Assembly (NCBI GenBank): GCA_913030835.1
Contig: CAJWDP010000007.1
Span: 1 to 64,000 of the forward strand
Direction: 5' to 3'
Length of the DNA stretch: 64,000 bases
DNA from: an uncultured Flavobacteriales bacterium
GTDB taxonomy: Bacteria; Bacteroidota; Bacteroidia; Flavobacteriales_D; Parvicellaceae
The position numbers and the translations under genes were made by a program. Positions within the stretch are counted from its first letter, which is position 1. The number at the start of each line of letters is the position of its first letter. A model generated the notes under the pieces. That model did not search any database, was not told where the DNA came from, and saw nothing but the letters and a program-made list of their open reading frames with translations. Below, one piece after another: positions 25,245-45,194 of this stretch.

Positions 25245-25391
25245 TTTATTCTAAATTTGTTTTTGTTTCTTACACTAATTTGTTTGCGAAAATAATAAAC
25301 TTACTCGGATTGTCACTTCTTGGAAAAAGTTAATATTTACGTGGCAAATATGATTTCAAATAAAAGATTAGAATAAAAAGGTCGATGCAAG

Positions 25392-25416
25392 GCAACCCAA
25401 TGTCTTAGTTATCGTC
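25392..25416 (+). promoter_or_regulatory. Candidate ECF-type promoter before the sigma gene
   Basis: GCAACC (25392-25397) and CGTC (25413-25416) are separated by 15 bases. An AAC-containing -35 element plus a CGTC -10 element is the general pattern of promoters read by ECF sigma factors. Its place 17 bases before the sigma ATG suggests autoregulation. This is a by-eye match with no transcript data. Confidence 0.42.
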
Positions 25417-25433: not shown

Positions 25434-26009
25434 ATGAATTTAACAGAAAAGCAGCTTCAAAAGACGATTAAGAAGTGTATAAAGAATGACCGAAAAAGTC
25501 AGGAATTACTCTTCAAAACGTACTACAGTAAAATGATGGCTGTGTGTATGCGTTACAGTCGCGATCACGATACTGCTCAGGATGTTTGTCAAACCGGATT
25601 CATAAAGATCTTTGAAAAATTGGAACGTTACAGTTTCGGAGGCTCATTTGAAGGGTGGATGAGAAGAATCATGGTCAACACGGCCATCGATCATATCAGA
25701 AAATCAAAAAAAGAGCTAACGATAATAGAAGACGAAAGCAGAATCGAAGATGATTTATTGGAAGATGAAGACATAGAATTATCTGAGATGTTAGGTATTG
25801 GCGTTGCGGATGTTGTGGAAGCCATGCAAAGTCTGAGTCCTGCTTACAAAACGGTCTTTAATTTATATGTAATGGAAGATATGTCTCACAAAGAAGTTGC
25901 AGAAATACTCGGCATTTCTGAGGGGACATCAAAATCCAATTTAGCAAAGGCGAAAAAAAATCTTAAGGTGATACTTAAGAAGAAAATGAAAGAGAATGAA
26001 GAACCGTAA
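25434..26009 (+). CDS. ECF-type RNA polymerase sigma factor
   Basis: The 191-residue protein has region 2 at about 20-88, including the core-binding and -10 melting motifs (DHDTAQDVCQTGFIKIFEKL, then GWMRRIMVNTAIDHIRK). A linker rich in acidic residues spans 95-118, and region 4 with a helix-turn-helix spans about 122-180 (LYVMEDMSHKEVAEIL, then SEGTSKSNLAKAKKNL). This is a sigma-70 ECF factor. Its last 14 bases overlap the start of the next gene, a membrane protein with anti-sigma-like design, so the pair is probably a sigma/anti-sigma unit. A GCAACC-N15-CGTC element upstream suggests self-activation. The likely targets are the surface-protein genes downstream (inference). Confidence 0.9.
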   Translation: MNLTEKQLQKTIKKCIKNDRKSQELLFKTYYSKMMAVCMRYSRDHDTAQDVCQTGFIKIFEKLERYSFGGSFEGWMRRIMVNTAIDHIRKSKKELTIIEDESRIEDDLLEDEDIELSEMLGIGVADVVEAMQSLSPAYKTVFNLYVMEDMSHKEVAEILGISEGTSKSNLAKAKKNLKVILKKKMKENEEP

Positions 26010-27297
26010 TGGTTTTGAAAATAGTGTAAAAGAAAAGTTGGAGCAGCAGCACTACGACTACGACCCTTCTCAATGGAACGCCATTGAGAAGCGGCTCCCC
26101 TCACCAAAAAAGGTACTGCCTTGGAAAGGTATTGCCGCTGCTTCGACTTTACTTGTTGTGTCATTGTTGATTTGGCAATTGATGGAGAAAGAGAATTCTT
26201 CGATAGTCGAAAACGAGCAACAGATCATTTCAAATAAAGATGGCGTTCCTGTTCCAGAAAAGACAGCAATTTCATCAACCGAAAATCAAGCGTTGCAAGA
26301 TTTTGATGCGGAGCAAACCATCATTGTGCATGATAGAGTGTATGACCATGCTGCTAACAATGAAGACGAGGAAAAGACTACTTCAGACAAGTATCGTAAA
26401 GTACCCGAGCATGAGTTTGTTCCTGATGAGGAATCAAACACAACGGTAGATGATAAAACAACAAAATCCTCTCAATTGAATCAGCATGGATTGTCAAATG
26501 CCTCAACAGGAAAAATCAGTAGACCAAGCGCACAGTTTTCATTGAATAAAACTTCAATTTGTACAGGTGAAGTGATTGATTTCCAACTATTAAGTCAATC
26601 AAAACAAGCACAGTATTTTTGGGATTTTGGAAATGGAGCAAACTCAACCGATAACAATCCTGTGTACCAATATCCTGAATCGGGAACTTATTACGTCCAG
26701 CTCAAAGCAACGAGCACCTTGGATGCATCTGTAATGAACATATCTGATAAAATTGCAATTCATGTTCTCCCGGCTCCTAAAGCCGAATTCAGGTGGTCGG
26801 AAAATAGCATGAATGCGATACCTTCCATCCAGTTCCAAAGCAACTCAGCTACTGCTGTGTATTGGGAATGGGATTTCGACAATGGTATAAAATCGACAGA
26901 AAAGGAGCCTTTTGTTACCTTTAACAAAAAGGGGTTTTATACAATAAGCCATACTGTCACAAATGTAGAAGGATGCTCCAAATCCTCTTCACAACAATTA
27001 GAAATAACTACCGATTACAATCTTTTAGCGCCAAATTCCTTTACACCTAATGCCGATGGAATAAATGATAATTTTATCCCTAAAGCACTTGAAATTCTCA
27101 ATGTAAATTTTGAGATGTCGATTTTCGACAAAAGAGGTTTGGTCTATTCTACAACTAGCGTGAGCTTTCCCTGGAATGGATCAAATCAAAGAGATGGTGG
27201 TTTGTGCCCTCAGGGTGCATATGTATGGGTGGTCAAGTATATTGATCACGAAGGAAAAGATCAGATTTTTAAGGGCACGATTAATTTGTTGAAATAA
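25996..27297 (+). CDS. Putative anti-sigma factor with periplasmic PKD domains and type B sorting-like domain
   Basis: The 433-residue protein has a cytoplasmic N-terminus of about 44 residues (YDPSQWNAIEKRLPSPKK), one membrane helix near 45-63, and a long polar linker. Two PKD-type domains follow at about 178-258 (FWDFGNGANSTDNNP) and 262-338 (WEWDFDNGIKSTEK). A C-terminal domain at about 344-433 matches the gliding-motility/CHU_C type B sorting domain (APNSFTPNADGINDNF, FDKRG, WNG, GAYVWVVKY). There is no cleavable signal peptide, so the PKD and C-terminal domains should stay tethered in the periplasm. No zinc-type anti-sigma motif (HxxxCxxC) is present; the anti-sigma role rests on the 14-base overlap with the sigma gene and the topology. 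It could instead be a signalling or scaffolding protein. Confidence 0.72.
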   Translation: MKNRNGFENSVKEKLEQQHYDYDPSQWNAIEKRLPSPKKVLPWKGIAAASTLLVVSLLIWQLMEKENSSIVENEQQIISNKDGVPVPEKTAISSTENQALQDFDAEQTIIVHDRVYDHAANNEDEEKTTSDKYRKVPEHEFVPDEESNTTVDDKTTKSSQLNQHGLSNASTGKISRPSAQFSLNKTSICTGEVIDFQLLSQSKQAQYFWDFGNGANSTDNNPVYQYPESGTYYVQLKATSTLDASVMNISDKIAIHVLPAPKAEFRWSENSMNAIPSIQFQSNSATAVYWEWDFDNGIKSTEKEPFVTFNKKGFYTISHTVTNVEGCSKSSSQQLEITTDYNLLAPNSFTPNADGINDNFIPKALEILNVNFEMSIFDKRGLVYSTTSVSFPWNGSNQRDGGLCPQGAYVWVVKYIDHEGKDQIFKGTINLLK

Positions 27298-27364: not shown

Positions 27365-30300
27365 ATGAAGTTTGGCTTGCTAATTTTATGTTTGGGGGTA
27401 TTGGGCTTAAGCTCTGCTTACAGTCAGTCAGATAATTGCGCCACAGCTACAACCTTTCCTTTAGTGGGTGGGTCCAACTGTCAAACCGGAACTACTTCTG
27501 GTGCTACTTCGGATAGTATTCTGTTCGGAGCATGCAACGCAGCACCTGCTAACGAAGTCTGGTACACGTATGTAGCAACGGGTTCCCAAAATGATTTTTC
27601 AGTTGTTCCCTCCGGTCTAACGGAAACGGAAATCGTAATCTATACCGGTGGATGCCCTCCAACCACGGGAACTTTGGTTACTTGCCAAACCGTTACAGGA
27701 ACGAATACATTAAACCTAAATTGGGGTTTTCCAGCTGGAACTCAGGTGTGGGTCGGAATAATGTCCAACGGCGGCACCGATGGTGGATTTGATCTATGTA
27801 TAGATTCGTACGATCCTCCACCGGGTGGCGGTAACGCCTGTTCCGGCGCTATTCCATTGTGCGACGTTAATGCTACTACGAGTATCGACATGTCCACCCT
27901 TTCGGCTTCCGGCGCAAGTCCGCCTTGTTTCCCCGGTGGTGGCAATCAAGATGTATGGCTCCAGTTTACGGTAACGCAAACTGGTCAGCTTGCCTGGGAT
28001 ATCTCAGCAACGAGCGGTTCCGGAATAGAATGGGACTGGTCCATTTACGATATAACGGGTGGATGCCCAACAAATCCGGCGCAATGGACTTCATCGAATG
28101 TTGCCTGTAATTACAACTACTCCAGCGGAAGCGGTGTTTCAGGCATGAATTGCACATCAACAACCGCATGCCCAATTAATACGGCCGGAACAGCTGCAGA
28201 AGAGTATTGCCCCTGTATAACGGTAACAGCTGGAAACACCTATGTAATTCAAATTGACAATTACACTAGTGCAACTGCTACCGGACTTGATTTTTCTTTT
28301 GGACCGGACATGACAGCGTTGATCGCTCCCGACGTAGACTTTTCAATTTCCCCATCGACCGTAACCTGTGGCAGCTCGGTTACGGTGAATATAACGGATA
28401 ATTCCGTTGGTATTCCAACCTGGGATTTTGGCGACGGAACTACTTTCACAGGGAATAACCCACCTTCTCATACTTATACAGCACCAGGCACTTATGCCAT
28501 TACAGCAACCATTGGGGGCGCCTGCCCGGATGTGCAAACCGAATTTGTTGAGTTGTTCGGTCCGTTAGTTACAACCGTCTCACAGACAGATGAAACCTGT
28601 CTAGGGGACTGTGATGGATCTGCTTCAGTCAGCACAACAGGAGGTAGCGGCGTTTACACCTATATCTGGACTCCAGGTGGAGCAACCACACCATCAATAT
28701 CAAATTTATGTAGCGGAAATTACTCTGTTACAGTAACAGATGCTACCTGTGCAACAAATAGTGTGGAGAACATCACAATTACAGGTCCATCTTGTGTGTC
28801 TTGTGTGATTGATTCTATGCCTATCGCTTTAACGAATTGTTACACCAATACTTCCGGTTTTCTAGTCTATGATGTAGCCGGCACCATATATTACACAGAT
28901 CCACCAACAACTGGCACACTGACAATTACAGCATGTGACGGGCAGCAGGTTGTGATCAGCGCTCCGTTTGGCACGTCAAGTCCTTTCAACTTCACCGATC
29001 TGCCTCAAGGTGGCGGAAATTGTGATTTTACAGCTGTATTCAGTGATGAACCGGCATGCGTGTATACTCAAGGGTTTCAAGCTCCTCCACCAATACTTGG
29101 ATTTAACATCTTCTGTACTGTTGGTGGTGGCTCCGTAAATGGAGATATAACCTTCGATGACACTTACACCTCCGGCACTTTGGTCATCTCCGTTTTTGAT
29201 GGGACATCGACGATCGACACAATTATTAATCTCCCGGCTACCAGCCCGCAAAACTGGTCGGTTTCCGGTTTGGATCCAACTGCAAATCCATACACTATTG
29301 ACTATTATTTCTCCGACTACCAATCATGTGGCAGCCAAACCGTGATCAATTGTGGTTGTGCAGCTTATGCTGGAACAGTTACAACGACACAAACGGGAAG
29401 TGGAATCAACAATTACATCCTTTGCTACGGAGATCAAATCGATATTACCACTAATGGTGACTATATAGATCCGGATGACATTGGTCCAATTGGTACAGGT
29501 CCTACTTACAATTTTCAACCGGAGTTGATTTATCTGGCCTATTCCTGTCCTCCAACACCTGGTTTATTCCCAACAGCGGATCCCTGTTTTATTGGTCTAA
29601 TCCCCAGTCCACAGGATTTAACTGACATCAACGATCCGACCTCATATGCTGCTACGTTGCCAGGAGGACCATATACCAACCTGTGGTTCGCGCAATCCAA
29701 TTTGTATCATTATGACCCTGTTTTGGGCAATTACATTTATAATTCGAATTGCTGGGATGTAGGCGATGGTGTTCAAGTAACCTACCTGAACCCTATTTCT
29801 GCACCATCTACACCAGACTGTCAGAACAGTGATGTAACGGTGGTCCTGACGGGTGGCTACCCCGAACTATTCGGTGGTAACTTCACCGCATCCAATCTTT
29901 CTCCTGCGACAGCAAGCTTTGTCAATACAACCTGTGCACATGGAGGATCAATTGTCATCAACGGACTTCAAGATGGCGACATGTGGTCGTTTGATGTGGT
30001 GGATGCAAATGGATGCCCGATTACCGTTTCCGGAGGACCATTTGTCGGGTTGCCCAATGCTCAAGCCGGTGTAGACGACACCATCTGTGGAGCGCTGACC
30101 TATAACCTTAGTGGCATCCCTTCATTCGGGACAGGATCCTGGACAGGCCCTGCAGGTATTACCTTTGCCAATCCTAACTCTGCTACCTCGGCAATAACGG
30201 CTGCTGCACCAGGAACTTATACCCTTACATGGACGGAAGACAACGGAGGCGGATGCATCTCTACCGATCAGGTTACTATATCGTTGTCCGATCCTACATT

Positions 30301-32722
30301 TACGGATGCGGTTGTTCCTGCCATCTGCGGCTTGGCCAACGGTGAAATAGAAATTACCGCCTCAGGTGGTGTTGCTCCCTACAGCTATAGCATTGACAAT
30401 GGTGCAACCTCCCAAGCAACAGGAACTTTTACCGGACTCTCTGCAAATACCTATCAGGGATGGATTCAAGATAATTTGGGATGCCTGTTCACTCAGAGCA
30501 TCACCATCAGCAACACCGGATCTCCGGTAATTGATAGTGTGGTTGCTACAGATCCTCTTTGTAATGGTGACTGTAACGGGCAGCTGATAATTTATGGATC
30601 AGGAGGAACCCCACCCTACGAGTATAGTCTTGACGGGGTTACTTTTGTCCCCGGTCAGGATACCTGGACAGGACTGTGTTCCGGTAATCAGAATGTATAC
30701 ATACAAGATGCTGCCGGTTGCCCAAACTCTTCTTCAACAATACTATACGATCCCCCTGCACTTAGTGTCGCTCTAGACCTTGTTGTGCATGTCGATTGCA
30801 ATGGTGATGCAACAGGAGAAATTCGTGTCACTGCTTCGGGAGGAACCTTCCCCTATTCCTATCTCTGGACAGGACCAGGAGGTCCTTACACTGCTGATGA
30901 TATCGACTTCCTTGCTGCAGGAACATACGACCTGGTAGTTACGGATGACAATGGATGTACTGCCACCTTTTCAGAAACCATCAATGAGCCTGCCCCTCTA
31001 ACCATTACCTTCTCCGCATTTGATGCTTCATGTGCCGGTGCTTGCGACGGAACTGCAATTGTAATCCCTGCCGGAGGCACTGTAGCTGCGGGATACAATT
31101 ACTCCTGGTCTTCAGGTATTGCAGGTAACGTACCCAATGCTGCCGGAATTTGTCCCGGAACATACGACCTCACTGTGACCGATGACAACGGATGCACTGC
31201 CGATACACTCGGGTGGAACATCCTCGGCCCTCCAGCTGTAACTTTCTCATCGGTGATCTTTACTGATGAAACCTGCAACGGGTCCTGTGACGGAACCATT
31301 ACTGTTGCCTCTGCTTCGGCAACCCAATATAGCTTTAACGGAGGAGCTTTTGCTCCAACATCGGCTTTCAACGGACTCTGTTCTGGAACCTACACCATTA
31401 CAGCAGCAGATGCAAACGGGTGCTCCATAGACACAACAGTAACCATTGGGTCTCCACCTGCGGTGAATCTAACAGCATCTCCCGATACCACTATATGTAT
31501 TGGAGGTACAGCCACCATTACGGCAACCGCTTCAGGTGGTGTCGGAGGATTCAACTATATATGGGACAGTGGAGAGCTGACCGCAACGATCAATGTATCT
31601 CCGGCTACCAATCAGGCCTACTGCGTGACTGTAACCGACGCAAACGGATGTCCTGCTCCTGCAGCAGCATGTGTAAACATCAACTTAAACCCTGCTCTGC
31701 AAGTAACTGCTTTATCCGACCAGGGGATATGTCCGGGGGATGTAGCAAGTATATCTGCTATTGCCACCGGTGGTGATGGAAATTACTCCTATACCTGGGA
31801 CAATGGGATCGGTCCGGGACAAACCCAAAACGTCGCTCCGGGGTCTACAACGGTGTATACAGTTACCGTTACAGACGGGTGTGAAACACCAGGTGCATCA
31901 GATGATCTTACCATTACTGTAAATCCTCTGCCCACCATTGATTTTACTCCGGATGTGACCGATGGATGTACCCCCGTTGAGGTCAACTTCACGGAAGCAG
32001 GGCAGCCTACAGGTTCGCAATGCTTCTGGGATTTCGGTGACGGAAACGCCAGTGTCAATTGTGGTACTGTTTCAAATACCTATACTGACCCGGGGTGTTA
32101 TGACGTAACTCTTACCGTTATATCAGACATGGGATGTACAGATCAGCTCACCTTTCCAAACCTGATTTGCGTGTATCCATACCCAAATGCAGCTTTCAGC
32201 TTCGGACCACAACCCACATCGGTCATGAACACAGAAATCGTTTTCACCAACGAATCAACAGGAGCAACAACCTACAACTGGGAGTTCGGAACAGACGGAA
32301 TACTGGGAAGTTCCGGTGAAACCAATCCGTCTTTCACATTCCCTAACGACAATCCGGGATCTTATCAGGTTTGTCTAACTGCAACAACAGATTATGGTTG
32401 CCAGGACAGTATATGCCAGCTGGTGGTCATCGACGAGGAGTTCATCGTTTATGTCCCCAATGCATTTTCCCCGGACGACGATAATGTTAACGAGCTATTT
32501 ACTCCCGTGGTAATAGGAGCGGATCCGTTGAACTACAAGTTTATGGTATTCAACAGGTGGGGAGAACTCATTTATGACAGTCAGATCATCGGACAAGGAT
32601 GGGACGGAAAATACGGTGGAATCCCCGTTCAGCAAGACGTATACGTCTGGAAATTGGAAGTAGTGAACGCCATGAACAACGAAAAACTCAATTACAAAGG
32701 TCATGTTACCGTGCTGAAGTAA
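27365..32722 (+). CDS. SprB-like giant adhesin 1, T9SS type B (1,785 residues)
   Basis: After a signal peptide (residues 1-20) come two head domains (about 22-148 and 154-308), a PKD domain (322-397), and an SprB-like repeat (398-478). Two copies of an unnamed module with a PPTTG-type motif (about 478-662) follow, then a Cys-containing module with YILCYGDQID. From T816 to the end the sequence is a stalk shared with the next gene: about five SprB-like repeats (ASGGVAPYSYSIDNG, YDLVVTDDNGC and similar), two Ig-like repeats, two PKD domains, and a type B sorting domain (YVPNAFSPDDDNVNELF, FNRWGELIYDSQ). Such proteins are exported by T9SS and displayed on the surface; SprB itself mediates gliding and adhesion. 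The ligand is unknown. It follows the putative anti-sigma gene by 67 bases and may be read through from it. Confidence 0.88.
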   Translation: MKFGLLILCLGVLGLSSAYSQSDNCATATTFPLVGGSNCQTGTTSGATSDSILFGACNAAPANEVWYTYVATGSQNDFSVVPSGLTETEIVIYTGGCPPTTGTLVTCQTVTGTNTLNLNWGFPAGTQVWVGIMSNGGTDGGFDLCIDSYDPPPGGGNACSGAIPLCDVNATTSIDMSTLSASGASPPCFPGGGNQDVWLQFTVTQTGQLAWDISATSGSGIEWDWSIYDITGGCPTNPAQWTSSNVACNYNYSSGSGVSGMNCTSTTACPINTAGTAAEEYCPCITVTAGNTYVIQIDNYTSATATGLDFSFGPDMTALIAPDVDFSISPSTVTCGSSVTVNITDNSVGIPTWDFGDGTTFTGNNPPSHTYTAPGTYAITATIGGACPDVQTEFVELFGPLVTTVSQTDETCLGDCDGSASVSTTGGSGVYTYIWTPGGATTPSISNLCSGNYSVTVTDATCATNSVENITITGPSCVSCVIDSMPIALTNCYTNTSGFLVYDVAGTIYYTDPPTTGTLTITACDGQQVVISAPFGTSSPFNFTDLPQGGGNCDFTAVFSDEPACVYTQGFQAPPPILGFNIFCTVGGGSVNGDITFDDTYTSGTLVISVFDGTSTIDTIINLPATSPQNWSVSGLDPTANPYTIDYYFSDYQSCGSQTVINCGCAAYAGTVTTTQTGSGINNYILCYGDQIDITTNGDYIDPDDIGPIGTGPTYNFQPELIYLAYSCPPTPGLFPTADPCFIGLIPSPQDLTDINDPTSYAATLPGGPYTNLWFAQSNLYHYDPVLGNYIYNSNCWDVGDGVQVTYLNPISAPSTPDCQNSDVTVVLTGGYPELFGGNFTASNLSPATASFVNTTCAHGGSIVINGLQDGDMWSFDVVDANGCPITVSGGPFVGLPNAQAGVDDTICGALTYNLSGIPSFGTGSWTGPAGITFANPNSATSAITAAAPGTYTLTWTEDNGGGCISTDQVTISLSDPTFTDAVVPAICGLANGEIEITASGGVAPYSYSIDNGATSQATGTFTGLSANTYQGWIQDNLGCLFTQSITISNTGSPVIDSVVATDPLCNGDCNGQLIIYGSGGTPPYEYSLDGVTFVPGQDTWTGLCSGNQNVYIQDAAGCPNSSSTILYDPPALSVALDLVVHVDCNGDATGEIRVTASGGTFPYSYLWTGPGGPYTADDIDFLAAGTYDLVVTDDNGCTATFSETINEPAPLTITFSAFDASCAGACDGTAIVIPAGGTVAAGYNYSWSSGIAGNVPNAAGICPGTYDLTVTDDNGCTADTLGWNILGPPAVTFSSVIFTDETCNGSCDGTITVASASATQYSFNGGAFAPTSAFNGLCSGTYTITAADANGCSIDTTVTIGSPPAVNLTASPDTTICIGGTATITATASGGVGGFNYIWDSGELTATINVSPATNQAYCVTVTDANGCPAPAAACVNINLNPALQVTALSDQGICPGDVASISAIATGGDGNYSYTWDNGIGPGQTQNVAPGSTTVYTVTVTDGCETPGASDDLTITVNPLPTIDFTPDVTDGCTPVEVNFTEAGQPTGSQCFWDFGDGNASVNCGTVSNTYTDPGCYDVTLTVISDMGCTDQLTFPNLICVYPYPNAAFSFGPQPTSVMNTEIVFTNESTGATTYNWEFGTDGILGSSGETNPSFTFPNDNPGSYQVCLTATTDYGCQDSICQLVVIDEEFIVYVPNAFSPDDDNVNELFTPVVIGADPLNYKFMVFNRWGELIYDSQIIGQGWDGKYGGIPVQQDVYVWKLEVVNAMNNEKLNYKGHVTVLK
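29810..32722 (+). repeat. Direct repeat copy 1: shared adhesin stalk (2,913 bp)
   Basis: This segment matches 34332-37244 at an offset of 4,522 bases. I see only two differences, both silent and near the left edge (29821 t/c and 29851 g/a). From 29852 onward no difference was found by eye, and the translations agree in all reading frames. The right boundary is the last base of the stop codon. Confidence 0.93.
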
Positions 32723-32771: not shown

Positions 32772-35700
32772 ATGTTGATTAGCAAATTAATCTTACCGTT
32801 GGCATTCTGCGGAATACTAATTGGATTGTCATTTACTGGATTTTCTCAAGGAGCCACCTGCGCAACCGCAGACCCATTCTGTACGGACAATGGTGCAAAC
32901 TTTCCAGCATCCACAAGTACAACAGCTGAAACAGGGCCAAACTATGGCTGTCTTCTATCACAGCCTAATCCCGCATGGTACTATCTCCAAATCGACAACT
33001 CGGGAAACATTGACATTACACTAACTAATAATGGGTGTGGAGGAACGGGATGCGATATTGACTTTGCGTGTTGGGGGCCATTTTCCAATCTAGCATCCGC
33101 GTGTTACCCTACAAATGCACCTATATCTTGTAGCTTCTCTCCCGATCCTACAGAAACTGTCAATATTACCGGAGCTGTTTCTGGAGAATTTTACCTATTG
33201 CTAATTACCAATTACTCAGGAGACCCAACAGACATCAGTGCCAATCAAACCGGGGGAACCGGATCCACCGACTGTTCAATTTTAACTCCTTGCTTTATGA
33301 ACTTCCTGGATGCGAATCTTACCGCATGTGACCCGGCTACAGGTACATTTGACATTTCAGGTGAAGTTCAATTTACAGACCCTCCAACCACCGGACAATT
33401 GATCGTAGAAAACTGTTCGGGAGATCAACAAATATTTAATCCACCTTTTACATCACCAATCAACTACAATATTACCGGCATTACCGCAGATGGCACAACC
33501 GGCTGTGAAGTAACCGCTTATTTCACTGCGGATCCGGCTTGCACTTTAACTTCAGGTACATTCACAGAACCCGTATGTACTTGCAATATGGATTTCTTTC
33601 AGGTCAACTTTGGTGCTTGTGAGACGTCAACGAACACCTATTCTGCAAACGGATACGTCGAATTCACTTCACCTCCAACCACTGGTCAGTTGATCATTAC
33701 CATCGATGACGGAATAAACCCTCCATACGATACAATTATCAACCCTCCATTTGTAAGCCCCCAAACTTGGAGCATCTCCGGAATGGCAACCGGTACCGGA
33801 ACTAGCGCTTCGGTTACAGTATACTTTACTGCTGATCCTGCGTGCACACAAACCCTAAGTCTTGCTGTACCCGCTAATTGTGACTGTCCTGCTACTGCCG
33901 GAACCTATACGACGACTATGACCGGAAATAGCAGCACCAATTATATACTTTGCAATGGTGATCAGATCGATTTTACACACAATAACGATTTCATTCCTCC
34001 TGCCGACCTTTCCGACCCAACCGTACCATATAATCCCGGCATTTGGTGGTTAATCTACAGCTGCCCTCCAACTCCGGGTATAGATATTCTCACCGACCCT
34101 TGTTTTCTTGGAGTTATTTCTTCAACTCAGAATTTTTCCGATGTGAACGACCTATCTGTGATTAACTCATTTCCCGCAGGAACATTTACTGACAATACCG
34201 TTTACTATGTCCCTATTACCATGTATGATGCGGTTGGTGGGATTTACAGTTTATACCCTCCTCCTGACCTTTGTTTTGACCTCGGTTTAGCGACGGAAGT
34301 TACCTACTTACCAGAAATTATTAGCAATGCGACACCAGACTGCCAGAACAGTGATGTAACGGTGGTCCTGACAGGTGGCTACCCCGAACTATTCGGTGGT
34401 AACTTCACCGCATCCAATCTTTCTCCTGCGACAGCAAGCTTTGTCAATACAACCTGTGCACATGGAGGATCAATTGTCATCAACGGACTTCAAGATGGCG
34501 ACATGTGGTCGTTTGATGTGGTGGATGCAAATGGATGCCCGATTACCGTTTCCGGAGGACCATTTGTCGGGTTGCCCAATGCTCAAGCCGGTGTAGACGA
34601 CACCATCTGTGGAGCGCTGACCTATAACCTTAGTGGCATCCCTTCATTCGGGACAGGATCCTGGACAGGCCCTGCAGGTATTACCTTTGCCAATCCTAAC
34701 TCTGCTACCTCGGCAATAACGGCTGCTGCACCAGGAACTTATACCCTTACATGGACGGAAGACAACGGAGGCGGATGCATCTCTACCGATCAGGTTACTA
34801 TATCGTTGTCCGATCCTACATTTACGGATGCGGTTGTTCCTGCCATCTGCGGCTTGGCCAACGGTGAAATAGAAATTACCGCCTCAGGTGGTGTTGCTCC
34901 CTACAGCTATAGCATTGACAATGGTGCAACCTCCCAAGCAACAGGAACTTTTACCGGACTCTCTGCAAATACCTATCAGGGATGGATTCAAGATAATTTG
35001 GGATGCCTGTTCACTCAGAGCATCACCATCAGCAACACCGGATCTCCGGTAATTGATAGTGTGGTTGCTACAGATCCTCTTTGTAATGGTGACTGTAACG
35101 GGCAGCTGATAATTTATGGATCAGGAGGAACCCCACCCTACGAGTATAGTCTTGACGGGGTTACTTTTGTCCCCGGTCAGGATACCTGGACAGGACTGTG
35201 TTCCGGTAATCAGAATGTATACATACAAGATGCTGCCGGTTGCCCAAACTCTTCTTCAACAATACTATACGATCCCCCTGCACTTAGTGTCGCTCTAGAC
35301 CTTGTTGTGCATGTCGATTGCAATGGTGATGCAACAGGAGAAATTCGTGTCACTGCTTCGGGAGGAACCTTCCCCTATTCCTATCTCTGGACAGGACCAG
35401 GAGGTCCTTACACTGCTGATGATATCGACTTCCTTGCTGCAGGAACATACGACCTGGTAGTTACGGATGACAATGGATGTACTGCCACCTTTTCAGAAAC
35501 CATCAATGAGCCTGCCCCTCTAACCATTACCTTCTCCGCATTTGATGCTTCATGTGCCGGTGCTTGCGACGGAACTGCAATTGTAATCCCTGCCGGAGGC
35601 ACTGTAGCTGCGGGATACAATTACTCCTGGTCTTCAGGTATTGCAGGTAACGTACCCAATGCTGCCGGAATTTGTCCCGGAACATACGACCTCACTGTGA

Positions 35701-37391: not shown

Positions 37392-40295
37392 ATGATTAAA
37401 AGCCTCCATCTAGTTATTTTCTTCCTTCTAGCGAGTTTATTTTCGTTTGCACAAACAATAAACATTTCTGCCGGAGGATCTCATACGCAATGCCTCGGAA
37501 ATACTACAGATAGTGATGCTTCGGGGGGAAATTATGGCCCTGGAGAAAATTATACTGTGACCATTTGCTCTGATGGAACCGGAAATGTAATTACGTTGGA
37601 TTTCACTGCAGGAGCTTTTGACGTTGACGCTAGTGATCAACTATTTATTTATGATGGTAATAGCGCTGCAGCTCCACTGATCGATATTTATAACAACAGC
37701 AATCCAGCGGTTGCCGTGTCCTCTACAACATCGAACACCAGCGGCTGCTTGACACTCGTTTTTGTATCTGACGCAAGCATTGAAGCCACAGGTTGGGATG
37801 CCAACATTGTATGTGGGACAGTCTGTCAACCCATTCTGCCTACCATTACTACTACTCCGCCCATTACATCGTATGGTCCGGATTCGAACTATACAAACAT
37901 ATGTCCCGGAGACACTATTCTTTTTACAGCATCCGGCACCTATCCGGTTAATGGAATCAATCCGGTAAACTATGCTCAAAGCGATGCAACTTCAACCTTT
38001 GAGTGGAACTTTGGCGAAGGCACAATTGCAAATACGGCAATTGCCAGTAACGTTTTTTCAGATGAACAGGGATACCTGGTTACATTAGTTGTAACGGATG
38101 CAAATGGTTGCTCTGAAACGGTAACGCACAAAGTAAGAACAGGAATATCCCCCACTTTCAGTGGAATTGCGGTAACTCCTGACACGGCTTGCTATGGTGA
38201 CACTGTTCAATTACTTGGTGGCTATAGTACCGTTTCATCCTCTGCTGTTGGAGCAGACGCCAACACGGGATACATACAAGCGGGTGGCGTAGTATCAGGG
38301 ACAACATTTCTTCCGGACGGCAGCGGTGTCAGCTATTCAACTAACGTAACTATTGGAGGTTTTGGATCCCAGACAATTATGGCGGGATCGGATATATCGG
38401 AAATATGCATTGACATTGAACATTCATACATCGGTGACCTCGATATGACCCTAACTTGTCCTAACGGCACAGTCATTCAGCTAATGGACACTTACAATGG
38501 TGGAGGGCCAGGCAATGTATTTCTAGGAGATGCTTTGGATGATGGATCAACCACCCCTGGTATTGGAATGACGTATTGTTTTGATCTGGGTGCAACTTGG
38601 GGAACCATGACGGACGAAAATATTGCAGGGAATTATATCCCCGCAACCGTTACTCCCCCAAATGATATTTTAGCTCCCGGATCATTCCAACCTTTGCAGA
38701 GCTTCAACTTGCTAGTAGGCTGCCCCATTGACGGAGATTGGACGTTAACTATTACAGACAATATTGGAATAGACAATGGATATATTTTTGAATGGGGAAT
38801 CGTAATTGATCCCGCGATTAACCCGAACTCTGAAATTTACAGTGTTGCCATTACCAATGGTGAATGGATCAGTCCAACAGTTGTTGGTGTTTCTGACTCT
38901 CTTTCTTATGCCATCCCGGACAGCAATGGATTATATGATTACACCTTTCAGATTACAGACGAATATGGTTGCACTTTTGATACCATAGTGGACGTGTTTG
39001 TTTTACCAGAAATGGTTCCAATCGCTACTCCCGACACGATTATATGCCCGGGCCAACCACTTACTTTGTACGGCGTAAATAGTGCTGCTCCTGTAATTTC
39101 AACTTGTGACTACTGTATTTATATGGAGGACACTTGGGGAGATGGCTGGAATGGTGGAACATTGACCATTTTACTGGATGGGGCAGTTGCCGGCAACTTC
39201 ACGCTGGCCACCGGTTCTTTTGATACCATTTGTTTCCCTGTTACCGATGGAGCGCTTTTGGAAGTATCGTTTGTTGCAGGAAGTTTTGTAAATGAAGTGA
39301 TCTATGAAATTGCTGATCCCAATGGAAATATTGTATTTGCAGATGGAGACGGTATTACCGGCCCTTCTGCCGGATTGCAAGTCGTAGGTAACATAGGGTG
39401 TGCGCCAAACTACAATTACATCTATACCTGGGAGCCTCCAACGGGACTTGCTTCTCCAAATAACGACACGACCGTCTTTACCGGGACAACGACATCAAGC
39501 TATCAATTGACCATGTCCATTGTTGGATATCCGCAATGTTCAATTAGCTCAGATACAATTACTGTGGAAGTGCAAGACACCACTTTATTACCTTCTGTAT
39601 CGGGCGATACCAGTCTGTGTATTGGAGAATCCACTACTCTATTCGTTGACAACGCATTGAGTCAATTGTGGCCGGATGGTTCAACCGGTGCGTCTGTTAC
39701 GTTTACACCACTGCAGGATACAACACTAATGGTTGAAGCTTCGAATGCGTGTCAGACTTATTTCTACCCAACAATGGTTTCAGTTCACCCATTGCCAACT
39801 GTTTCGACAATCAATGATACAACTATTCCAATTGATGCCAGTGTGGATTTATTTACGACAAGCTCAGGTGTTAGCTTTTTATGGACACCTGCAACAGGAC
39901 TCGACTGTTACACATGTGAAAGTCCTGTAGCTACTCCTACTACCAACGCTTCCTATGTTGTTGAGATCACTGATATACATGGTTGCAAAAGCTATGATAC
40001 AGTGCATATATTAGTAGAGTATCTGCCGCTATTTATTCCTACCGGGTTTTCTCCAAACAACGATGGTGTAAATGACCTGTTCTTTGTTCGTGGCACAGGA
40101 ATTGGACAAATGGAGCTTCAAATATTCGATCGGTGGGGTATTATGGTCTTCAGCACAACAGATCAAAGTATTGGATGGGACGGGACTTACCAGGGCCAGG
40201 TACTTAATTCTGATGTTTTTGTGTACAAATGTGATGTGGTCTTGAAAAATCTTGAAACTTTAAAATTCCAAGGCAATCTAACATTATTCCGATGA
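37392..40295 (+). CDS. Surface protein with CUB, PKD, P-domain and type B sorting domain (967 residues)
   Basis: A signal peptide (1-21) is followed by a CUB-like domain (about 22-147: YTVTICSDGTGNVITLDF, then LFIYDGNS and SGCLTLVFVSD) and a PKD-like region (about 155-255). A proprotein-convertase P-domain-like segment lies at about 297-478 (ICIDIEHSYIGDLDMTLTCP, DGDWTLTITDN). A module with the TWGDGWNGGTLTI motif lies near 571-665, then Ig-like repeats, and a type B sorting domain at 878-967 (IPTGFSPNNDGVNDLF, FDRWG, WDGTYQG). No protease catalytic domain is present, so the P-domain stands alone as a probable binding module. The stop overlaps the start of the PorP/SprF gene by four bases. 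Confidence 0.85.
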   Translation: MIKSLHLVIFFLLASLFSFAQTINISAGGSHTQCLGNTTDSDASGGNYGPGENYTVTICSDGTGNVITLDFTAGAFDVDASDQLFIYDGNSAAAPLIDIYNNSNPAVAVSSTTSNTSGCLTLVFVSDASIEATGWDANIVCGTVCQPILPTITTTPPITSYGPDSNYTNICPGDTILFTASGTYPVNGINPVNYAQSDATSTFEWNFGEGTIANTAIASNVFSDEQGYLVTLVVTDANGCSETVTHKVRTGISPTFSGIAVTPDTACYGDTVQLLGGYSTVSSSAVGADANTGYIQAGGVVSGTTFLPDGSGVSYSTNVTIGGFGSQTIMAGSDISEICIDIEHSYIGDLDMTLTCPNGTVIQLMDTYNGGGPGNVFLGDALDDGSTTPGIGMTYCFDLGATWGTMTDENIAGNYIPATVTPPNDILAPGSFQPLQSFNLLVGCPIDGDWTLTITDNIGIDNGYIFEWGIVIDPAINPNSEIYSVAITNGEWISPTVVGVSDSLSYAIPDSNGLYDYTFQITDEYGCTFDTIVDVFVLPEMVPIATPDTIICPGQPLTLYGVNSAAPVISTCDYCIYMEDTWGDGWNGGTLTILLDGAVAGNFTLATGSFDTICFPVTDGALLEVSFVAGSFVNEVIYEIADPNGNIVFADGDGITGPSAGLQVVGNIGCAPNYNYIYTWEPPTGLASPNNDTTVFTGTTTSSYQLTMSIVGYPQCSISSDTITVEVQDTTLLPSVSGDTSLCIGESTTLFVDNALSQLWPDGSTGASVTFTPLQDTTLMVEASNACQTYFYPTMVSVHPLPTVSTINDTTIPIDASVDLFTTSSGVSFLWTPATGLDCYTCESPVATPTTNASYVVEITDIHGCKSYDTVHILVEYLPLFIPTGFSPNNDGVNDLFFVRGTGIGQMELQIFDRWGIMVFSTTDQSIGWDGTYQGQVLNSDVFVYKCDVVLKNLETLKFQGNLTLFR

Positions 40296-41371
40296 TTGGG
40301 AGTAGAACATATTTGTTGGTTGGCTTTCTATTTTTTTCTGTAGAATATTACTCTCAGGACATCCATTTTTCTCAATTCGAAAATGCTCCATTGGCAATAA
40401 ATCCCGGAAATGCCGGAATGGGTAAAGGATACAATAGAGCAAATTTGGTTTATCGTTCGCAATATCCAAGCCTTGGAAATGTATTCAGCACACAATACGC
40501 TTCATTGGATTTCCCCATCCTGAACGAGGCAATGCGACATAAGAATGGGCTTTTAGGTGTAGGAATCTCATTTTTCAATGATCAAGCAGGTGACTCAAAA
40601 ATGGGAACACTTCATGCGGCCCTAACACTGTCAGGCATTGTTACGCTTAATCGACAACAGCGCTTATCTATGGGACTCCAATGTGGATATATGCAAAAGT
40701 CATTTGATGTATCCAATATCACCTGGGACAATCAATTTAACGGATATCAATACGATCCAACATTACCCTCTGGAGAAATGAACTTTATGGAAAAAACCGG
40801 TTTTTTCGATATGTCTGCAGGGGTTGCTTACAAGTATTTTTCCACCGAAACAAATCTCTACAATATAGAAAGGACATCTTTTGATGGTGGCATTGCTTTT
40901 TTCCACTTAACCAGAGGAAAACAAGAGTTTTTCCAAGGTCAGCAAGATCGGCTGTATGGAAGGCTAGTAGTTCATGCGACAAGCCTTTTCACATTGGAAA
41001 ACAGACCATTTGGGTTCAGACCATCGGTCTTGTATCAGCGTCAAGGCACACTTAGCGAAGCGATAGTAGGAGGAGGAATCAACTACTACATCAAAGCTGA
41101 CACTAAATACACAGGATTTGTTAAACAAGCCTATATCGGGTTAGATTTGAGATATCGTGTGAATGATTCATTTATAACAGGAATACGGTTTAAGTTCAAT
41201 GATTTTGAAATTCGTTTGTCTTATGATTATACTACATCCGATCTCAGCTCTAGAATAAACGGAGTCGGCGGATTTGAAATTGGATTCAGATTCACAGATA
41301 CCTATGGAACATTATTCAATCAAGGAAATAAACACGTAATCAACAGTCATGGGGGAAATTTAAGCTTATGA
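40292..41371 (+). CDS. PorP/SprF family outer-membrane protein
   Basis: The 359-residue protein has a signal peptide (GFLFFSVEYYSQ) followed by the PorP/SprF start DIHFSQFENAPLAINPGNAG, and alternating amphipathic strands throughout consistent with a 14-strand-type barrel. FDVSNITWDNQFNGYQYDP and the C-terminal GGFEIGFRF are typical of the family. SprF of Flavobacterium is needed for secretion or attachment of SprB, and family members are often encoded beside their type B cargo (established). Here the ATGA overlap with the 37392 gene argues that it serves that cargo first, and perhaps its neighbours. Confidence 0.9.
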   Translation: MIGSRTYLLVGFLFFSVEYYSQDIHFSQFENAPLAINPGNAGMGKGYNRANLVYRSQYPSLGNVFSTQYASLDFPILNEAMRHKNGLLGVGISFFNDQAGDSKMGTLHAALTLSGIVTLNRQQRLSMGLQCGYMQKSFDVSNITWDNQFNGYQYDPTLPSGEMNFMEKTGFFDMSAGVAYKYFSTETNLYNIERTSFDGGIAFFHLTRGKQEFFQGQQDRLYGRLVVHATSLFTLENRPFGFRPSVLYQRQGTLSEAIVGGGINYYIKADTKYTGFVKQAYIGLDLRYRVNDSFITGIRFKFNDFEIRLSYDYTTSDLSSRINGVGGFEIGFRFTDTYGTLFNQGNKHVINSHGGNLSL

Positions 41372-41468: not shown

Positions 41469-44400
41469 ATGAAATACCTTGCATTGGTTACTTTATTGTT
41501 GTCAATTGGGTTCAAGACCTTTTGTCAAACAGTAGTTTTAATGTCGGATGGCACTGCTTCTACGTGTTCAGGAATATTATATGATACCGGAGGAATTGGA
41601 GCAACCGGATATCAGAATGATGAATATTATGTCCTTACGATTTGTCCGGATGTGCCCGGCGATGTAGTAACCCTTGATTTTGTCTCTTTCGCCTTAGATC
41701 AAACGAATACCGCAGCGCCACCGGCCAGCAATATCGACAATCTCGCAATTTTTGATGGTAATAGTACAGCCGCCCCGTCATTAGGTGTCTATACGGGCAA
41801 CAGTCTTCAGGGGTTATTGGTTTCTTGCACCTCATTGAATACCTCGGGTTGCCTGACCTTGGTTTTTACGTCAAACAACACAGGTACGGGTGTTTTTGCA
41901 GCATCAATTACCTGCAGCACCCCTTGCCAAAGACCGGAGGTGCACATGGCAGCGCCAACAATAGCAGATAATCCTGTTAAAATATGCGATGGAGAGACAG
42001 TAAATTTTGATGGTAGCGCTTCCTTTGCAGCCCCTGGATTTACAATAGTTGATTATATTTTCAACTATGGGGATGGAACTTCGGACACGCTTAACACCCC
42101 TATTTCCTCGCACGTGTACAATTCAGGTCCAGGAGAATATTCCATGAATTTATATGTAATCGATGACAATGGCTGCATCAACACCAACGTTGAAACAATA
42201 GTAGTTCAAACAGGCACAATACCTATATTTAATTACATCTTTTCAGATACTACGCTATGCCTAAATGAGTCAGTTTGCATGGGAGAACCGGGCACGTTGG
42301 CGAGTACGGGTTCAGTAACGGGTCATGTTGTTCCAACTACATGGACAGGTCAACCGGTAAGCAGTCTTGGAGGCGCAACTTATTTACCTGATGACGTTGG
42401 TTCATGCTTTTCTGCTACTCTAGAATTCTCAGCTTTCACTCCCGGCCAGACACTGAACAATGTTAATGACTTACAAGATCTTTGTATTAACATGGAACAT
42501 TCCTATATGGGTGATCTGGTTGGAACCATATACTGCCCAAACGGACAGAGCGTAATTTTTCACCAGCAGAACGGGGGAGGCACTTTTTTGGGAGATCCAA
42601 TCGACGTAAACGATAGCTTACAACCCGGTGATTGTTGGGAATACTGCTTTAGCCCGACGGCAACCAATGGAACCTGGGTAGATAATGCACAATTTGGTCC
42701 GACACCAAATACAATTCCTTCAGTGAACAACGCTTTTGGTAATTGCCTAATTCCGGGAACTTATGAAAGCTTAAACCCTTTGTCTGGTCTCGTTGGTTGT
42801 CCTTTAAATGGTACATGGACGCTGGAATTTTGCGATTTATGGGGCGCGGATGATGGATTTGTCTGTGATTTCTCGGTTAATTTTGACCCTTCGCTATATC
42901 CAGCCATATCCACTTTCACACCAATTATTGGCAGTGAATGTGATTCAAGCTATTGGACCGCTTCGACCTTAGCGACATCCTTCATAACATCTTCTTCTAC
43001 TGACTGTAACCAGATCTGTATTACTCCGACCCAAACGGGTTTATTTGATTATACCTACGTAGTTATAGACGATCACGGATGCACCTATGATACTACCTGG
43101 ACTGTTACGGTTGATGATGGACCCACAGTTTTTGCTGGAAATGACACAACCGTTTGCCCAGGCTCCTTGCAACTTTTAGCTACGGCTACTGGGGGGATTG
43201 AAGCTCCTCCAACCTGCGATTATCAGATCAATATGTATGACTCATTTGGAGACGGATGGAACGGATTTAGTATTGAGGTTTTTGCAGATGGTGTTTCATT
43301 GGGAGATTACTCCTTTACTTTTGGTGCTACCAATACTGAAACATTTCCTGTTTACGCTGGGGCTGTATTAGATTTTCAAACTACCTCGGGTATTTTTGAT
43401 GCGGAAGTAAGCTATGAAATTCTCGATTGCGATGGTAACGTCATCTTTCAAGATGGGCTGCTCTTTTCAGGGGTTAATCCAATCATTGGTCTGGCGTTTA
43501 CTACCACCGCAGTTAGCAATGTACCTCCACAATATAACTTTTCATGGTCTCCTGCTTCGGGATTGTCTGATCCTCTTATTGCAGACCCTACGGCCAACAT
43601 CAGTGGGTCAATTCAATATGTTGTTGAAGGTTGGGAAACCAACCACTTGCTTTGCTCATCTACCGATACAATTAATATCACAGTAAGCTCTACCGGTTCA
43701 GCAGGGAATGACACACTATTGAACTATTGTAATTCGGATCCTATTGTTGATCTTTATTCACTTTTGCCAGGCAGTCCGGATCCGGGTGGAAATTGGTTCG
43801 ATTCTGCCCTAACGCCAGCAACTAGTATCTTTGATCCAGCCACACAGAGCTCTAACGTTTTTGCTTATGTTGTAGGAGTCGGTGGTTGTTCAGATAGTGC
43901 ATTCGTTACGGTCAACGTAGCTCTTCCATTCAACCTAAATTTGTCCAATGACACGACTATTTGTGAAAATGGGACCGCTCAGCTCATTGCCAATCCTGCT
44001 GGAGGGCTGGGAGGGCCATATACGGAGTCATGGAGTTCTGGATTAATTGGAAATGCTCCCCATGCAGTAAATCCTGCGATCAACACATGCTATTCCATGT
44101 TTGTAACCGATGCATTTGGGTGTATCTCCGAAACAGATTCTATTTGTGTGAATGTGCTTGATCCTATTTCGGCATCCGTTATTGGAACTGATTCTATTTG
44201 TCCAGGAGAAAATGTTCAATATGATGCTACTGCATCCGGTGGTTACGGTGCACCGTACACATTTAGTTGGGATAATGGCATCGTTGGACCTCAATTGACA
44301 GACGTTCCTACCACATCTACAACATATTGTGTTACAATTACAGACAATTGTGAATCGACTCCTGTAATTGTTTGTGATTCTATTATAGTGAGCCCAAACC

Positions 44401-45194
44401 CACCGGTTAGTTTCATATCGGATACGAATTCCGGATGTTATCCGTTAACCGTAAATTTCACAAACACCACCCCTTCATCCTTTATAGAATCAGTATTTTG
44501 GGATTTCGGAAATGGAAGTACAACATCCAGTACAGGAACAGTAGGAGCAACCTATCCCGACCCTATTTGTTATGATGTTAGCTTAATTGTCACTACCCCT
44601 GAGGGATGTGTTGACAGCCTCATCCAGCCGGATATGATTTGTGTTGATGACTATCCAATTGCCAATTTCACCATGAATCCGAATCCGACCAATTTAAATG
44701 AAACCATAATCGAGTTTACAAATCAAAGTACGGATGCCGCCACATATTTTTGGGAATTTGGAGCGAATACAGTTCCAACTAGCTCTGTACTGATCGATCC
44801 CACTGCAGAATTTCCGAATATTAATCCGGGAACTTATGATATCACACTTACGGCTTATACTGACGCCGGATGTGCCCATGACACGACATTCACACTTATT
44901 ATTAATGGAATATTTACGCTATATGTTCCCAATGCATTTAGCCCCAACGGGGATGGGTTCAATGATCTTTTTATGGCTCAAGGAGACATGATCGACCCGG
45001 ATGATTTTGAATTTCGCTTATTCAATCGATGGGGAGAGCTAATTTGGGAAACAGATGCACATGACGGAGCTTGGGACGGCACATACAAGGGATCAGCAGT
45101 GCCTGTTGATGTATATGCCTGGAGAATAAAAGCAAAAGATCTGTATACAGACGAAATCTACGAATTCACGGGTAGCGTAACAGTAGTTCGCTAA
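41469..45194 (+). CDS. Surface protein with CUB, PKD, P-domain, Ig/PKD repeats and type B sorting domain (1,241 residues)
   Basis: This is a longer paralogue of the 37392 protein. It has a signal peptide (1-20), a CUB-like domain (about 21-155, with YVLTICPDVPGDVVTLDF), and a PKD domain near 170-250 (FNYGDGTSDTLN). A P-domain-like segment lies at about 303-477 (LCINMEHSYMGDLVGTIYCP), and a module with DSFGDGWNGFSIEVF near 582-680. Several Ig-like repeats follow, then two PKD domains (about 977-1145; FWDFGNGSTTSSTG, FWEFGAN), and a type B sorting domain (about 1147-1241: YVPNAFSPNGDGFNDLF, FNRWGELIWE). Its two last PKD domains resemble those of the adhesin stalks at the protein level but are diverged in DNA. 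The role is probably surface binding; no enzyme domain is seen. Confidence 0.85.
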   Translation: MKYLALVTLLLSIGFKTFCQTVVLMSDGTASTCSGILYDTGGIGATGYQNDEYYVLTICPDVPGDVVTLDFVSFALDQTNTAAPPASNIDNLAIFDGNSTAAPSLGVYTGNSLQGLLVSCTSLNTSGCLTLVFTSNNTGTGVFAASITCSTPCQRPEVHMAAPTIADNPVKICDGETVNFDGSASFAAPGFTIVDYIFNYGDGTSDTLNTPISSHVYNSGPGEYSMNLYVIDDNGCINTNVETIVVQTGTIPIFNYIFSDTTLCLNESVCMGEPGTLASTGSVTGHVVPTTWTGQPVSSLGGATYLPDDVGSCFSATLEFSAFTPGQTLNNVNDLQDLCINMEHSYMGDLVGTIYCPNGQSVIFHQQNGGGTFLGDPIDVNDSLQPGDCWEYCFSPTATNGTWVDNAQFGPTPNTIPSVNNAFGNCLIPGTYESLNPLSGLVGCPLNGTWTLEFCDLWGADDGFVCDFSVNFDPSLYPAISTFTPIIGSECDSSYWTASTLATSFITSSSTDCNQICITPTQTGLFDYTYVVIDDHGCTYDTTWTVTVDDGPTVFAGNDTTVCPGSLQLLATATGGIEAPPTCDYQINMYDSFGDGWNGFSIEVFADGVSLGDYSFTFGATNTETFPVYAGAVLDFQTTSGIFDAEVSYEILDCDGNVIFQDGLLFSGVNPIIGLAFTTTAVSNVPPQYNFSWSPASGLSDPLIADPTANISGSIQYVVEGWETNHLLCSSTDTINITVSSTGSAGNDTLLNYCNSDPIVDLYSLLPGSPDPGGNWFDSALTPATSIFDPATQSSNVFAYVVGVGGCSDSAFVTVNVALPFNLNLSNDTTICENGTAQLIANPAGGLGGPYTESWSSGLIGNAPHAVNPAINTCYSMFVTDAFGCISETDSICVNVLDPISASVIGTDSICPGENVQYDATASGGYGAPYTFSWDNGIVGPQLTDVPTTSTTYCVTITDNCESTPVIVCDSIIVSPNPPVSFISDTNSGCYPLTVNFTNTTPSSFIESVFWDFGNGSTTSSTGTVGATYPDPICYDVSLIVTTPEGCVDSLIQPDMICVDDYPIANFTMNPNPTNLNETIIEFTNQSTDAATYFWEFGANTVPTSSVLIDPTAEFPNINPGTYDITLTAYTDAGCAHDTTFTLIINGIFTLYVPNAFSPNGDGFNDLFMAQGDMIDPDDFEFRLFNRWGELIWETDAHDGAWDGTYKGSAVPVDVYAWRIKAKDLYTDEIYEFTGSVTVVR

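Follow-up and report, generated by a model that had tools for sequence, protein, structure and literature searches.

How Bacteroidota match the production of giant surface adhesins to T9SS export and anchoring is a question raised by a locus in a 64,000-nucleotide stretch (the window; positions 1 to 64,000 of contig CAJWDP010000007.1, from an uncultured Flavobacteriales bacterium), where an ECF sigma factor gene overlaps by 14 bp the gene of a partner protein that ends like a T9SS cargo and is followed by adhesin genes (Table 1). The initial annotation had given this partner a cytoplasmic N-terminus, one membrane helix, two PKD domains and a type B sorting-like domain, and domain searches, hydropathy and AlphaFold2 modeling agreed with each of these assignments.

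Table 1. Features of the sigma/anti-sigma locus and the adjoining adhesin genes, with positions in the window.
Feature	Position	Strand	Basis or remark
Predicted ECF promoter of the sigma operon, GGCAACC-N15-CGTC (-35/-10 type)	25391..25416	+	Kept in orthologous loci
ECF sigma factor, 191 aa	25434..26009	+	PF04542 and PF08281 over cut-off; orthologs 5' of every full-length partner checked
Predicted anti-sigma factor, 433 aa: hairpin, membrane helix, tether, PKD-PKD, type B domain	25996..27297	+	
Cytoplasmic helical hairpin, residues 4-33, predicted sigma-binding part	26005..26094	+	AlphaFold2 helices 4-17 and 25-33
Membrane helix, residues 44-63	26125..26184	+	Hydropathy, AlphaFold2
Acidic disordered tether, residues 66-171	26191..26508	+	AlphaFold2 pLDDT about 28
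PKD domain 1	26521..26742	+	PF18911; structural matches to PKD domains, Z about 12
PKD domain 2	26761..27009	+	PF18911, second stretch; structural match to PKD, Z 12.9
Modified T9SS type B (CHU_C) domain without RWG motif	27028..27285	+	PF13585, 51.4 bits
Adhesin 1, 1785 aa, SprB repeats, PKD, type B domain	27365..32722	+	Starts 67 bp past the anti-sigma gene
Adhesin 2, 1494 aa	32760..37244	+	Last 2871 nt identical to adhesin 1
Adhesin 3, 967 aa, type B domain	37392..40295	+	TIGR04131, 61.7 bits
PorP/SprF family shuttle/anchor protein	40292..41371	+	TIGR03519, 153 bits
Adhesin 4, 1241 aa, type B domain	41469..45194	+	TIGR04131, 55.9 bits

The sigma ORF matched Sigma70_r2 (PF04542, 58.9 bits) and Sigma70_r4_2 (PF08281, 59.5 bits) far above the cut-offs, and is a short protein with sigma-70 regions 2 and 4 only, as in ECF sigma factors; its score against TIGR02985 (95 bits) was under the cut-off of 126. 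The partner scored 75.5 bits against PF18911 and 51.4 bits against PF13585 (CHU_C), both with a cut-off of 27. Against TIGR04131 it reached 32.5 bits, slightly below the cut-off of 35, and 35.2 bits in a genome-wide search; it was among the weakest of the 37 type B matches in the 3.14-Mb genome. Both PKD domains and the type B domain were well folded in the AlphaFold2 model. Hydropathy peaked from residue 41 on, and since K/R residues precede this peak, the N-terminus is predicted to lie in the cytoplasm. Inspection by eye revealed no signal-peptide cleavage motif, and the hydrophobic helix begins only at residue 44, behind the conserved hairpin. The hairpin matched no named anti-sigma family; no FecR domain was found in the partner at E ≤ 1, and the listed family matches of 24 orthologs (E ≤ 0.01) included none either. 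Foldseek and VIA-align searches with the partner returned mainly PKD and other Ig-like folds and were uninformative for the hairpin.

Comparison of 54 orthologs revealed that these parts are conserved to different degrees. Mean pairwise identity was 39% in the type B domain, the highest of all parts, 34% in the hairpin, where W27 is invariant, and 27% in each PKD domain. The tether showed 11% mean identity and no conserved motif, with a length of 85–124 residues (median about 105). A most-conserved type B domain behind a tether that keeps its length and not its sequence is the pattern that a sensor head carried by a spacer would show. Two cysteines, C189 in PKD1 (26560-26562) and C327 in PKD2 (26974-26976), were invariant in 24 aligned orthologs, neither with a visible partner within its own domain, and an inter-domain C189–C327 disulfide is possible.

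The prevalence of the pair was examined by whole-genome searches with alignment. These replaced a single-protein scan of public genome contigs, which had yielded only two distant matches because its patterns need near-identity. In a search of 40 relatives, full-length partner frames of about 400–480 aa were present in most genomes of the family and in several other families of the order. The initial annotation had proposed searching for ECF sigma genes followed by a one-TM protein ending in a CHU_C or TIGR04131 domain. At the level of the class, at least 50 of 295 genomes, spread over about 14 families, carried a full-length partner. The sigma gene lay directly 5' of the partner in all 26 aligned order-level orthologs, most of them overlapping by 4–23 bp, and in all 29 class-level loci opened, and PKD and CHU_C domains were both present in the 24 order-level partners scanned. 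The architecture is kept in more than 50 genomes with a sigma gene upstream at every locus opened, which argues that the pairing is more than chance. The class-wide operon, the N-in topology and the conserved cytoplasmic N-terminus together bear out the sigma/anti-sigma layout first read from this locus. Around the pair, a malate dehydrogenase gene on the far side of the sigma gene and a gyrB gene after the partner form a conserved frame, and the stretch between them varies; this neighborhood is old.

The type B domain of the anti-sigma proteins differs from that of cargo in one conspicuous feature. It retains the PN.FTPNGDGIND, W-D/N-G, Y.W and terminal blocks, whereas the RWG motif was found in none of 54 anti-sigma tails and in 51 of 55 cargo tails (Fisher p 9e-27). 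Among cargo, this block was present in 23/24 tails of the same genome, 28/31 neighboring adhesins and 15/21 type B proteins with the predicted promoter motif. A tree with 57 cargo tails, 24 from the same genome and 33 from ORFs near orthologs, placed the anti-sigma tails in one clade (support 100/96) apart from cargo, suggesting an old dedicated domain; the orthologs were gathered by profile similarity, which favors one clade. In Flavobacterium johnsoniae, the type B tail has five conserved motifs, each needed for secretion, and is recognized by specific PorP/SprF shuttles (PMC12618676); type B proteins are also anchored by PorP-like proteins (PMC9143113). Since each published motif is essential for secretion, and RWG presumably lies in one of these motifs (A to E), we read the domain as a tail with its fold and much of its surface kept that is unlikely to be ordinary cargo. 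The absence of RWG from all 54 tails fits a modified rather than a working cargo tail, and the domain may no longer meet the secretion machinery at all. The initial annotation had matched the PKD and type B domains to the ends of the neighboring adhesins; the likeness is real (E 2e-23), but other type B proteins of the genome are closer (2e-29), and the tail tree rejects copying of the anti-sigma tail from these neighbors.

Next, we considered which genes the sigma factor might transcribe. Of 57 orthologous loci, 55 have a motif GCAAC[C/T]-N14..16-CGT[C/T] 5' of the sigma start, as do all six further loci, at a distance of mostly 32–46 bp and rarely about 125 bp; having the shape of an ECF -35/-10 pair, it implies, at the level of sequence, that the sigma factor is autoregulated. 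In the 3.14-Mb genome, the exact GGCAACC-N15-CGTC motif occurred three times, once before the sigma gene and once before each of two type B adhesin genes, at a distance of 58 bp (1143 aa) and 117 bp (1327 aa). The stricter pattern GGCAAC-N15/16-CGTC likewise gave three matches, and a variant with spacing 17 lay 51 bp before a third type B gene (673 aa). Loosening the motif to GCAACY-N13..16-CGTY gave 58 genome matches compared with 94 for a reversed control; the loosened motif is thus unselective, and the regulon claim rests on the full motif. Across the family, 20 of 62 non-self sites preceded genes with type B tails compared with about 0.2 expected, the 62 being those with enough downstream sequence, the two in the studied genome included, and the expectation being calculated from the share of positions (0.33%) in the 450 bp leading up to a type B gene, not from a control-pattern search. 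Two further sites start small-protein operons that are followed, judged by coordinates, by a type B gene; one site precedes a PorP/SprF gene, and several precede ORFs ending like type A cargo. Two thirds of the family sites were not before type B genes, and many look like chance. None of the 12 sites in genus g2 preceded a type B gene, and a genus that lacks the pair (G005, G013 and G020) had no sites. In two genomes outside the family, a copy of the motif also lay before the adhesin gene adjoining the pair. Such a predicted promoter motif, seen both at the sigma gene and in trans ahead of type B adhesin genes, supports the earlier suggestion that the pair controls surface adhesin genes.

At the locus itself, the link to the adjoining adhesins is less direct. 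No terminator-like site was found between the anti-sigma gene and adhesin 1, and scans of the locus for sigma-70-like promoters and terminators performed at chance level, so co-transcription with the adhesins is indicated by spacing and the absent terminator-like site only. After adhesin 4 follows gyrB, on the other strand. The gene immediately downstream of the pair encoded a proven type B protein in 19 of 45 loci with readable downstream sequence, compared with roughly 1% of genes being type B; 8 more loci had ORFs that resemble adhesins but run into a contig end or showed no tail, giving 27/45 in all. In five genomes (G006, G010, G014, G017 and G023), the pair directly precedes gyrB with no adhesin between; adjoining adhesins are thus dispensable to the pair, and the link to adhesins runs through the genome-wide promoter motif as much as through adjacency. 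The ends of adhesins 1 and 2 are identical over 2871 nt (29852-32722 and 34374-37244) and their N-terminal parts differ: a new head on a fixed stalk and tail, arising from recent duplication, gene conversion or an assembly effect.

Several known systems share parts of this design. Dma anti-sigma factors (Dma1-3), known in Bacteroidota only, pair with ECF21 sigma factors in Bacteroides thetaiotaomicron (PMC13088901). The partner resembles them in its N-terminal anti-sigma domain (sigma binding being a prediction), single membrane helix, long disordered tether and adjacent ECF sigma gene; by contrast, Dma proteins end in a beta-barrel and the partner in PKD-PKD-CHU_C, and Dma controls vesicle and polysaccharide genes where the partner is predicted to control type B adhesins. 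PorA of Porphyromonas gingivalis is a T9SS C-terminal-domain protein that influences the ECF sigma factor of T9SS genes (PorXY-SigP; PMC7712824), and a search of the open literature found no other CTD protein reported to influence an ECF sigma factor. PorA, however, has a signal sequence, resides on the cell surface, acts via the PorXY two-component system, is itself no anti-sigma factor, and controls machinery genes. With T9SS type B cargo, the partner shares the CHU_C/TIGR04131 fold, preceding PKD domains and a nearby SprF gene (PMC12618676, PMC9143113); PF13585 scored over its cut-off and all 24 scanned orthologs carry CHU_C. It differs from such cargo in its predicted anchoring in the inner membrane, with no signal peptide seen on inspection, and in lacking RWG, like its orthologs. 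FlgM is a small soluble anti-sigma factor that is exported by the flagellar apparatus and leaves the cell. The partner would likewise couple a secretion machine to the transcription of its cargo, but it is predicted to be membrane-anchored and is unrelated. No protein of the partner's design was found described in the openly licensed literature searched. The initial annotation knew of no system with this exact design; the Dma class, which is closely comparable, has been published (PMC13088901).

Collectively, these observations favor, with a probability of about 60%, an autoregulated sigma factor held by a Dma-like, envelope-spanning anti-sigma factor that controls type B adhesin genes and uses its modified cargo tail to monitor type B secretion. 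Within this reading, the predicted pairing and regulon are well supported by sequence comparison, and we infer the binding of the sigma factor, the docking partner and the direction of the signal. The cytoplasmic hairpin would hold the sigma factor, and the anti-sigma protein, anchored in the inner membrane, would reach the outer membrane on a disordered tether whose length suffices to span the periplasm. There, the type B domain may dock on the machinery for type B cargo, either a PorP/SprF-type protein or the SprA translocon, and docking, its loss, or competition by real cargo would change the grip on the sigma factor. Once freed, the sigma factor would transcribe its own operon, consisting of the sigma and partner genes, and type B adhesin genes elsewhere. 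Driving these genes, it is proposed to match adhesin synthesis to the capacity for secretion and anchoring.

The same order of parts as in Dma proteins, namely an anti-sigma domain, membrane helix, long disordered tether and outer-membrane module (PMC13088901), also fits a surface sensor that spans both membranes. Here, the N-terminus would remain in the inner membrane, whereas the T9SS would export the PKD-PKD-type B part and an SprF-like barrel would keep it on the cell surface. The trigger that frees the sigma factor would then be, as proposed for Dma proteins, contact at the surface, a bound ligand or a pull on the tether. In favor of this reading, about 105 tether residues could bridge the periplasm, surface adhesins often contain PKD domains, and another anti-sigma-like protein of this genome joins a similar N-terminus to what looks like a barrel end. 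However, all 54 tails lack RWG while the conserved type B motifs are each essential for secretion, and the translocon could be jammed by a substrate still anchored in the inner membrane; we regard this reading as unlikely.

The cargo-like tail could alternatively report envelope stress or a cargo backlog. Unsecreted cargo would titrate a periplasmic factor or protease for type B tails, leaving the anti-sigma factor exposed to regulated cleavage, of which RseA/DegS is an example. An anti-sigma factor anchored in the inner membrane is a layout common in systems controlled by proteolysis, but neither a protease nor a cleavage site was identified and the tether has no conserved motif, making this explanation improbable. 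Finally, an ordinary membrane-anchored or secreted T9SS protein that lies by chance beside a sigma gene would also have a Pfam-significant type B domain and PKD domains as in cargo, but is scarcely credible given that every ortholog checked, from about 14 families, follows a sigma gene, and given the conserved cytoplasmic hairpin, the lack of a visible signal peptide, the lost RWG and the separate clade of the tail.

The pair offers a candidate regulator, kept across many families, for which the promoter motif and the sensor domain are defined and the regulon is predicted, and with all of these in hand the matching of adhesins to secretion becomes directly testable. The cell may thereby tune adhesin production to how well adhesins can be secreted. 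The pair also suggests that sorting domains are reusable as sensors, and a membrane helix followed by a type B fold that lacks RWG is a marker for finding more such proteins. More tentatively, and at somewhat less than even odds, the pair may represent a class-wide anti-sigma family in which a disarmed T9SS type B tail senses the type B route and sets type B adhesin transcription, with both the cargo and the shuttle halves of that route built into sigma regulators.

Related designs in the same genome suggest that Bacteroidota several times joined outer-membrane or secretion modules to anti-sigma factors. In a Dma-like pair (G000:C1:93008-94703; L116:3009-4704), the partner of the ECF sigma factor has 374 aa and no NCBIfam match; behind a similar N-terminal motif come a membrane helix and a linker, and the protein ends barrel-like, as in Dma. 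A shorter pair (G000:C1:175657-177321; L031:3658-5322) has one PKD domain and a type B-like tail without RWG, and lies beside a CotH-like gene. It has eight relatives, with a type B-like tail that also lacks RWG; seven are full-length, with the ECF gene directly upstream and its own promoter-like GCAACC-N15..17-GTC. Another sigma gene (G000:C3:93006-95247; L115:7007-9248, minus strand) is followed by a gene for a 583-aa protein and then by a separate SprF gene. In the 583-aa protein, a long linker connects an anti-sigma-like N-terminus and membrane helix to a PorP/SprF barrel (TIGR03519, 112 bits, over the cut-off), a design complementary to the cargo-like tail; relatives were present in about ten genomes, and in the loci read, TGTAACTTTT precedes the sigma gene.
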